In this document: piece after piece, positions 44,264 to 48,346 of the stretch
How the letters are laid out: the number at the start of each line of letters is the position of its first letter
How positions within the stretch are numbered: the first letter of the stretch is position 1
NCBI GenBank assembly: GCA_902598405.1
Contig: CACKBQ010000004.1
Span: forward strand, 1-64,000
From: an uncultured Pelagibacteraceae bacterium
GTDB taxonomy: Bacteria; Pseudomonadota; Alphaproteobacteria; Pelagibacterales; AG-422-B15
Direction of reading: 5' to 3'
DNA length: 64,000 bases
Position numbers and translations under genes: made by a program
The notes under the pieces: model-generated
What the model saw: the letters and a program-made list of their open reading frames with translations, nothing else
The model's database searches: none
What the model was told of the DNA's origin: nothing

Positions 44264-44280
44264 TTGATAATCATTCTCAA
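44264..44280. promoter_or_regulatory. Fur-like operator overlapping a candidate -35/spacer
   Basis: TTGATAATCATTCTCAA: near-perfect 17-nt palindrome; TTGATA (44264-44269), 16 nt, TATATA (44286-44291). Confidence 0.65.
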
Positions 44281-44289
44281 TAAGATATA

Positions 44290-44314
44290 TAGAATGAAAC
44301 TTAGTATCATTCTA
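44290..44314. promoter_or_regulatory. Second inverted repeat just downstream of the Fur-like box
   Basis: TAGAATGA-AACTTAGTA-TCATTCTA: 8-bp perfect arms, 9-nt spacer. Confidence 0.5.
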
Positions 44315-44330
44315 AAGAAGGGAAAAATTT

Positions 44331-45378: not shown

Positions 45379-45450
45379 TTGAGGTAATTTGGCCACCGTC
45401 TCTTCTTCTCATTAGTATCCAAGGTCAAATTACCTCAACTAAATTGAGGT
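45379..45450 (+). ncRNA. Candidate cis-regulatory RNA with two mutually exclusive hairpins upstream of the peroxiredoxin gene
   Basis: TTGAGGTAATTTGGCC (45379-45394) pairs with GGTCAAATTACCTCAA (45423-45438); ACCTCAA (45432-45438) also pairs with TTGAGGT (45444-45450), which contains the GAGG ribosome-binding site for the ATG at 45458. Confidence 0.6.
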
Positions 45451-45457
45451 TATATTT

Positions 45458-45991
45458 ATGAATAGATTACCAAATGTAACATTTAAGATCAGGTCTCAAA
45501 ATGAATTTGAGACTGGGGAAATGTGTTATCTTGAAGGAGACAAGGCATGGATGTCAATTTCCTCTAGCGATTTATTCTCAGAAAAAAGAGTTTTAATATT
45601 TTCATTACCGGGCGCCTTTACTCCAACTTGTTCATCACAGCAATTGCCTGCATTTGATGAGAAATTTGAAGCTTTTAAAAACTTAGGAATTGATGAAGTA
45701 TTTTGTGTCTCCGTTAATGATTCATATGTCATGAACGCTTGGAGTAACTATATGGGCGTTAAAAATGTGCAAATGATTCCAGATGGAACGGGTCAATTTA
45801 CAAGGATGATGGGCATGCTTATTAATAAAGATCATAATGGATTCGGTATGAGGTCTTGGAGATATGCAGTTGTTGCAAATAATATGGAAATTGAACAGAT
45901 GTTTATCGAGCCAGGTCTTAATGATACAGGAAATGATGATGATCCTTATATTGAAACAAATCCTGATAATATATTAGAGTTTCTTAAATAA
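45458..45991 (+). CDS. Peroxiredoxin (Prx5/AhpC-TSA type)
   Basis: 'LIFSLPGAFTPTCSSQQLPAFDEKFEAFKNLGIDEVFCVSVNDSYVMNAW'. Confidence 0.92.
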   Translation: MNRLPNVTFKIRSQNEFETGEMCYLEGDKAWMSISSSDLFSEKRVLIFSLPGAFTPTCSSQQLPAFDEKFEAFKNLGIDEVFCVSVNDSYVMNAWSNYMGVKNVQMIPDGTGQFTRMMGMLINKDHNGFGMRSWRYAVVANNMEIEQMFIEPGLNDTGNDDDPYIETNPDNILEFLK

Positions 45992-46016: not shown

Positions 46017-47630
46017 ATGAAGTTAGATTTTTGGCAAATTACTCCGGTTGCAACATTTGCAATTTTTATTGCTCCTGTATTTATTGTGCTATTCAGTCTT
46101 GCTGGTGATTACTCTGAAAACTGGACACATTTGTATAACCATGTACTTTTTGGTTATATAGAAAATTCTATTTATTTAGTTCTTGGGGTCTCAATTATGG
46201 TTGCCATAATTGGTGTTGGCACTGCCTGGCTGGTAACCAACTATAATTTTACAGGAAAAAATATTTTTGAATGGGCGTTAATTTTACCACTTGCTGTACC
46301 TCCATATATACTTGCTTACACTTTTACTGGTTTATTCGATACCTTTGGTACTGCGAATAATTTAATAAGGGATCTTTTTGGGCTCGGTGCAGATTTTATT
46401 TTTTTTCCTAAAGTAAGAAATGTTCCTGGAGCGATTGTAGTATTTTCCTTCACCCTATACCCATATGTATATCTTGTGAGCAGAATGGCCTTTATAAATC
46501 AATCTAGATCAATTCTTGAAGCGGGTAGAACTCTTGGACTTGGTAAACTAGAAGTATTTTATAAATTAGCTGTTCCAATGATTAGACCTGCAATTATTGG
46601 GGGCCTCATGCTCGTAATCATGGAAACTTTATCTGATTTCGGAGCAGTTGATCACTTCGCTATTTCAACTTTTACAACTGGAATATTCAGAACATGGTAC
46701 GGCATGTATGATATTGAAACTGCAAAGCAGTTAGCTTCATTGTTACTCATATTTGCAATTTTATTAATTATATCTGAACGTTACTCTCGAAAAAATGCTA
46801 GATATTCAAATGCCAGCTCAGTCTTTAAGCCGCTTTATTTAGCTAGGCTGAAAGGTAGTTCAAATATTTTAGCAATATTAATCTGTTTCGTTCCAATCTT
46901 TGTTGGTTTTTTATTGCCTGTGATGGAACTTGGGTACTGGGCATTTAATTACAAGTTAGATTTTTTTAATGATAAGTTTCTTACGACTGCATGGAATACA
47001 TTTTACTTAGCAATAATAGCAGCTTTCTTATGCAGTCTATTAGCTGTTCTTATAAATTTTTCAATTAGATATAAAAAAAATAATTATCTGAAGTCTATGA
47101 GTTCATTTTTGACTGTTGGATATGCGGTGCCAGGTTTGATACTTGCAATTGGCGTTATGCAGCTACTTACATTTTTAGACAGAAACATTGGAGATTATTA
47201 TTTTGATTTTGTACTTACAGGTAGTCTAGTTGGATTAGTTTTAGCTTATATAATAAAATCCTATGCGCTCTCAAGTTCTACGATTGAAGCTGGATATCAG
47301 CGTATAAATATGAGAATTGATGATGTAGCAAAAACACTTAAAACATCAGGCTGGTCTCTCTTATCTTCAGTTCATTTGCCATTATTAAAAACTAGTTTTC
47401 TAACAAGCATGTTATTGGTAGTTTCAGAAGTCATAAAAGAACTTCCCGCAACGCTTATTTTGAGACCATTTAATTTTGATACATTAGCCGTATATACTTA
47501 TATTTATGCAGCAGAAGAAAGAATGTACGATGCTGCTGCACCTTCTATTGCAATAGTTATGGTAGGGCTTATTCCAATAATAATATTGACTAGAATGATC
47601 AGAAGTTCTAGACCTGCATCAAGAGATTAA
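46017..47630 (+). CDS. fbpB: Iron(III) ABC transporter permease (fused, FbpB-like)
   Basis: Two permease halves: 'EAGRTLGLGKLEVFYKLAVPMIRPAIIGG' and 'DDVAKTLKTSGWSLLSSVHLPLLKTSFLTS'. Confidence 0.92.
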   Translation: MKLDFWQITPVATFAIFIAPVFIVLFSLAGDYSENWTHLYNHVLFGYIENSIYLVLGVSIMVAIIGVGTAWLVTNYNFTGKNIFEWALILPLAVPPYILAYTFTGLFDTFGTANNLIRDLFGLGADFIFFPKVRNVPGAIVVFSFTLYPYVYLVSRMAFINQSRSILEAGRTLGLGKLEVFYKLAVPMIRPAIIGGLMLVIMETLSDFGAVDHFAISTFTTGIFRTWYGMYDIETAKQLASLLLIFAILLIISERYSRKNARYSNASSVFKPLYLARLKGSSNILAILICFVPIFVGFLLPVMELGYWAFNYKLDFFNDKFLTTAWNTFYLAIIAAFLCSLLAVLINFSIRYKKNNYLKSMSSFLTVGYAVPGLILAIGVMQLLTFLDRNIGDYYFDFVLTGSLVGLVLAYIIKSYALSSSTIEAGYQRINMRIDDVAKTLKTSGWSLLSSVHLPLLKTSFLTSMLLVVSEVIKELPATLILRPFNFDTLAVYTYIYAAEERMYDAAAPSIAIVMVGLIPIIILTRMIRSSRPASRD

Positions 47631-47632
47631 AA

Positions 47633-48346
47633 ATGGATATAATTCTTGAACTAAAAAATATAAAACACAGCTTCACAAGAGATAATGAAGTTTTAAAAGA
47701 TGTTTCTCTACAAGTAAATCGAGGGGAGATAATTACAATCTTAGGACCTTCTGGATGTGGCAAAACTACTTTGCTAAGAATTATTGCAGGTCTAGAAGAA
47801 CAATCAGCAGGTACAGTATCGATAGATAATGAAATTGTTTCAGGGCATTTAAATCATGTAAATACTGAGGAACGAAATATTGGATTGGTTGTTCAGGAAA
47901 GAGCATTGTTTCCACACCTCTCGATTGTGAATAATGTAAAATTTGGAATAAAAGGTAATAACAAATATAATACCGAGAGAGCTATGAGTTTATTAAAGCT
48001 ATTTAGTGTTGAGAGATATGCAAAAAACTATCCTCATGAAATATCAAGCGGTGAACAACAAAGGGTTGCATTAGCAAGAGCAATGGCGCCAAATCCAAAA
48101 ATTTTGTTAATGGATGAACCTTTTGGAGCTTTGGATAAGGAATTAAAAGTAAGATTGAGATCTGAAACAAATAAAATTCTTCGAGATAACCTCACTACAA
48201 CTATCATTGTTTCTCACGATACTGATGACGCGCTAGCAATGTCTGATAGAGTTTTAATTATGAAAGATGGTAATTTTATTCAAAACGGCAAACCTGAAGA
48301 TGTCATCTCTATAAACTCAACCGCATCTCAAAAAAACCTTATTTAA
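47633..48346 (+). CDS. fbpC: ABC transporter ATP-binding protein (FbpC-like)
   Basis: 'LGPSGCGKTTLLRIIAG', 'ISSGEQQRVALARAM', 'LLMDEPFGALD'. Confidence 0.9.
   Translation: MDIILELKNIKHSFTRDNEVLKDVSLQVNRGEIITILGPSGCGKTTLLRIIAGLEEQSAGTVSIDNEIVSGHLNHVNTEERNIGLVVQERALFPHLSIVNNVKFGIKGNNKYNTERAMSLLKLFSVERYAKNYPHEISSGEQQRVALARAMAPNPKILLMDEPFGALDKELKVRLRSETNKILRDNLTTTIIVSHDTDDALAMSDRVLIMKDGNFIQNGKPEDVISINSTASQKNLI

Follow-up and report, generated by a model that had tools for sequence, protein, structure and literature searches.

The fbpA locus

The window, by which we mean the whole 64-kb stretch of DNA that was analysed, comes from the AG-422-B15 lineage of SAR11 and carries a binding protein-permease-ATPase gene set of which fbpA is a member (Table 1). 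No family model above its cut-off names the substrate of the FbpA-like protein, which is probably iron, as judged from the Fur- and Irr-type boxes upstream of the gene and from the SAR11 literature (PMC2864753). Under iron limitation, the sfuC, sfuB and sfuA transcripts of P. ubique rise 16-, 10- and 5-fold (PMC2864753). The Fur-box-like palindrome is putative, and a similar box also lies upstream of fbpA in sister genera. The Irr/ICE-like boxes (TTAGTATCATTCTAAA) that precede fbpA are found in other subclades (L023, L031 and others) before prx or fbpB as well, which suggests that internal iron-controlled promoters may have been gained there. The peroxiredoxin gene also adjoins fbpA in a genome of a sister genus (G062); within the genus it has been lost from this site repeatedly (L011-L022), with a short 3' remnant remaining.

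Table 1. Features at the fbpA locus, numbered by position in the window
Feature	Position	Strand	Remarks
Fur-box-like palindrome TTGATAATCATTCTCAATAA, putative, upstream of fbpA	44264..44283	+	read in sequence
Irr/ICE-like box TTAGTATCATTCTAAA, upstream of fbpA	44301..44316	+	read in sequence; resemblance only
fbpA-like (sfuC-like) periplasmic substrate-binding protein gene, 343 aa	44331..45362	+	SBP_bac_6/8/1 Pfam matches
fbpA stop codon	45360-45362	+	read in sequence
Arm A, 3' stem-loop	45379..45394	+	16-bp inverted repeat; covariation
Terminal loop, 28 nt	45395..45422	+	conserved core ACCGTCTCTTCTTCTCATTAGTATCC (45395-45420)
Arm B, 3' stem-loop	45423..45438	+	inverted repeat; drifts by G-U wobbles, pairing kept
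A' (TTGAGGT), with prx Shine-Dalgarno GAGG (45446-45449)	45444..45450	+	can pair with 3' part of B
Peroxiredoxin (Redoxin family) gene, prx	45458..45991	+	PF08534
fbpB-like ABC permease	46017..47630	+	BPD_transp_1
fbpC-like ABC ATPase	47633..48346	+	ABC_tran

A long hairpin follows fbpA in the window

A preliminary description of this DNA had noted the pairings between fbpA and prx, and these were borne out. Arms A and B form 16 pairs, one of them G-U, the 3' portion of B (45432-45438) can instead pair with A' across the intervening CTAAA, and GAGG stands 8 nt before the ATG of prx. The absence of a U tract after A:B was likewise confirmed, as no T run lies 3' of B. No other such inverted repeat in the window is as long as A:B, but when the full window was dinucleotide-shuffled 40 times, 2 of the shuffles reached 16 pairs somewhere, so that length by itself is no more than modest support. 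The z score of the local fold is -3.2, and equal stability was seen in 0 of 200 shuffles. The decisive evidence for the hairpin is conservation and covariation in relatives, rather than length.

No Rfam family scored above its gathering threshold in the window. The low-threshold matches at the element (up to E = 10), plant miRNAs and the like, were set aside as implausible noise and included no iron-responsive element (IRE). No published description of the element was found in the literature searched.

The hairpin is tied to fbpA and selected as RNA

Directly 3' of fbpA, the A:B hairpin was present in all 32 genomes of the same genus (g1) in which fbpA was found, in one copy per genome; in six further incomplete genomes of the genus neither the hairpin nor fbpA was found. 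The only exception to an intact element is one genome (G005) in which a deletion took both arm B and the greater part of prx, and there the element is thus dispensable. Prx is missing from beside fbpA in roughly two thirds of the hairpin-bearing genomes, where a short piece of it often survives. In another genome (G020) the gene after fbpA is convergent, so that fbpA is apparently the last gene of its own transcript, and the hairpin is retained. Because it persists both without prx and beside a convergent neighbour, the element belongs with fbpA rather than with the gene downstream. Search R1 gave no match outside genus g1 among 397 genomes of the order and 385 of the class.

Across 15 distinct versions of the hairpin, 98.2% of cells were paired, as compared to 33-53% when the partner was slid by 1-3 columns. 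Compensatory substitutions in relatives, named earlier as a test of the element, were found: changes on both sides occur in 4 of 15 pairs, and the A:B helix is genuine and under selection as RNA. The wobbles comprise 25 G-U cells and a single A-C cell, which identifies the fbpA-sense (+) RNA as the functional form, not antisense RNA or DNA.

The loop is the most conserved part of the hairpin

The preliminary description had overlooked the loop, which is better conserved than any other part of the hairpin. Among 13 representatives, 20 of 25 loop columns are invariant and diversity (pi) is 0.045, below the 0.064 of the first and second codon positions of fbpA. The comparison values are 0.33 at third positions of invariant residues, 0.45 at four-fold sites and 0.40 in the 5' spacer. 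The loop is under strong purifying selection. A split form of its core, ACCGTCT..TTAGTATCC, occurs in 25 of the 397 order genomes, always after fbpA, and its carriers are genus g1 plus two genomes of sister genus g7; the reversed-pattern control gave no match in the same 397. In g7 the core ACCGUCU…UUAGUAUCC is kept within hairpin arms that are entirely unrelated, so the stem is exchangeable while the loop core is retained. Genus g8 has a hairpin at the same site, with a partly similar loop (CTCATTA..AT).

Several other appearances of the loop sequence were considered and rejected. A mini-ORF across it (TTG GCC ACC GTC TCT TCT TCT CAT TAG behind GAGG) has lost its start codon in L031, L033 and L091. 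Near matches in three Pelagibacteraceae genomes (G037, G043, G055) fall inside the coding frame of an ftsW-like cell-division gene, and the two matches found beyond SAR11 (L087, Clostridia; L111, Verrucomicrobiales) lack a stem. The 69 exact matches to the loop core in viral contigs are attributable to chance, as they favor no particular gap length and lack a long stem.

Two local variations were also seen. In g7 (L158-L160) a further hairpin abuts the fbpB start codon, its loop TGTATCCTAATTT resembling that of g8. In G020 (L034), GGATACTAATTTTT downstream of the hairpin complements the loop segment ATTAGTATCC, giving a terminator-like alternative fold; a downstream GGATACTAAT complementary to the loop occurs in this one genome only.

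Hairpins in the wider Pelagibacteraceae

Six Pelagibacteraceae genomes with fbpB directly adjacent to fbpA (L035, L072, L079, L244, L245, L249) also have a hairpin in the fbpA-fbpB spacer. These hairpins are independent, covary strongly, in 9 of 22 pairs (6 sequences), and carry their own, different conserved loop (ATTACCC-like). No comparable hairpin was found in L070 and L076, where fbpB is also directly adjacent. In most other Pelagibacteraceae genomes fbpA and fbpB are separated by a small cysteine-rich gene, and such a hairpin is absent. The product of the small gene is a cysteine-rich (CxxC) protein, present in many Pelagibacter genomes (most of L243 and L246-L282).

The proposed translational switch

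The headline of the preliminary description was a translational on/off switch, in which A:B leaves the prx Shine-Dalgarno free and B:A' buries it. The geometry is correct, and with A masked B:A' does form in silico, bringing Shine-Dalgarno accessibility near zero. The energies are nevertheless lopsided (A:B -21.3 versus B:A' -6.9 kcal/mol), leaving A:B more stable by about 14 kcal/mol, and A' itself is poorly kept. TTGAGGT occurs only in the nearest relatives of the window, with CTGAGGT in L008. L153 and the next clade have TTAAGGT, which carries a mismatch to B, and L023, L031 and L033 have no A' at all. In L026 and L028-L030 a second repeat pairs with B but lies off the ribosome-binding site, the prx start being about 75 nt further on. 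The element also persists after deletion of prx and in the absence of a co-directional gene downstream. With A' mismatched or absent in most relatives, the switch is not supported and we consider it very improbable; the perfect A' match of the window is recent, and the comparison gives no support to selection of B:A' as a switch. The companion idea, that a ribosome terminating on fbpA could affect arm A, also fails if the ribosome covers about 12 nt, as the arm is then out of reach. What fits best from that description is its other suggestion, a 3'-end-stabilising stem that sets the fbpA:fbpB ratio.

Discussion

We favor the interpretation, with a probability of roughly 0.55, that the 3' stem-loop protects the fbpA segment of the mRNA and that its conserved loop is read by a sequence-specific factor. 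From the RNA structure and its link to fbpA we infer protection, an effect on stoichiometry, and recognition of the loop. The stem-loop would sit in the 3' untranslated or intercistronic part of the fbpA mRNA, where the long stem most likely blocks 3'-to-5' exonucleases; the fbpA segment would then outlast the downstream prx-fbpBC segment and leave the binding protein in excess over the permease. Among ABC operons of E. coli, the gene that is stabilised is without exception the one for the binding protein, and most stabilised upstream segments are delimited by hairpins that have no U tract (PMC5927463). The SAR11 locus shares two properties of the malE-malF type: a stable hairpin lies between the binding-protein gene and the next gene(s), and the U tract is absent, with the L030 clade as the exception. 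In several subclades the downstream gene has an apparent promoter box of its own, so that differential decay may matter less there. A plain protective hairpin needs no conserved loop, and a sequence-specific reader is therefore called for. Most likely the stem displays the loop to such a factor, protein or RNA, which could tune protection of the fbpA mRNA, perhaps with iron status. A narrower proposal has the loop bound by an RNA-binding protein that senses iron or redox state and stabilises fbpA mRNA under iron scarcity, a convergent counterpart of the transferrin-receptor IRE; we regard it as a rather unlikely elaboration.

The conserved loop also raises the alternative of a trans-acting sRNA, released as a stem-loop when the fbpA transcript is processed and pairing through its loop with target mRNAs under iron limitation. 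The nearly invariant loop is displayed single-stranded, and the element occupies, in one copy per genome, the 3' UTR of a probably iron-controlled gene, as such an sRNA would. Against it, Hfq was found in 0 of 20 genomes of the genus, most of them incomplete, as compared to 5 of 14 control genomes; a conserved terminator U tract is absent; and a search with one 15-nt seed, allowing up to 2 mismatches, found no conserved site complementary to GATACTAATGAGAAG above the reversed-pattern background. Together, the failure to find Hfq, a conserved T run or, from that seed, a conserved target makes an sRNA less likely, and we hold it to be an outside possibility. Termination or partial termination, with most transcripts ending after fbpA and some reading through into prx-fbpBC, would likewise yield an excess of binding protein. 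It would suit G020, where only a convergent gene follows fbpA, and L030, which has a T run 3' of B, and B:A' was flagged as terminator-like. That single terminator-like match, however, equals the shuffle expectation of 0.8, the T run after A:B is absent in most lineages, and a Rho-dependent route has no need of the A:B structure; a terminator is accordingly unlikely as well.

Least probable, in our estimation to the point of being hardly tenable, is a DNA-level element such as an operator, promoter or recombination site that is palindromic by chance. Its appeal is that the loop holds TTAGTATC, which also makes up the left half of the ICE-like box in front of fbpA. The excess of G-U over A-C pairs favors RNA, though, and the fbpA promoter of g7, which does retain the loop core, lacks such a half-box. 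No promoter-like match was found in the element, which is single-copy and always follows fbpA. The same-sense TTAGTATC common to the loop and the box is probably a coincidence.

SAR11 bacteria are among the most abundant in the ocean, and fbpA/sfuC mRNA has been put forward as a metatranscriptomic marker of iron limitation (PMC2864753). If the protective stem-loop sets the lifetime of that transcript, the reading of such marker data would be affected. Retention of the loop through replacement of the stem points, moreover, to a sequence-specific factor in a streamlined, regulator-poor organism.

Comparison with known systems

The closest parallel is malE-malF of E. coli, where a hairpin without a U tract likewise lies between ABC binding-protein and permease genes (PMC5927463). 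The putatively protective SAR11 element differs in that its loop is also strongly conserved and outlives replacement of the stem. The rpsL and ffh motifs of P. ubique are also SAR11 intergenic structured RNAs, but lie upstream of genes, and one less-supported motif of the same survey likewise has an especially conserved loop (PMC2704228). That survey considered only intergenic regions of >100 bp (PMC2704228), so that a short fbpA-fbpB spacer would be missed. With RyhB, FsrA and IsrR the element has in common a conserved single-stranded RNA segment in a probably iron-controlled unit, but it is without its own promoter, Hfq, a conserved terminator or a found target. Among eukaryotes, the iron-responsive elements in the 3' UTR of the transferrin-receptor mRNA place a conserved loop on a hairpin of an iron-uptake message. 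The SAR11 hairpin, in contrast, has no CAGUGN loop, no bulged C and no IRE match in Rfam. We conclude that the element is an intercistronic 3' stem-loop of a known type, with its unusually conserved loop as the new feature.
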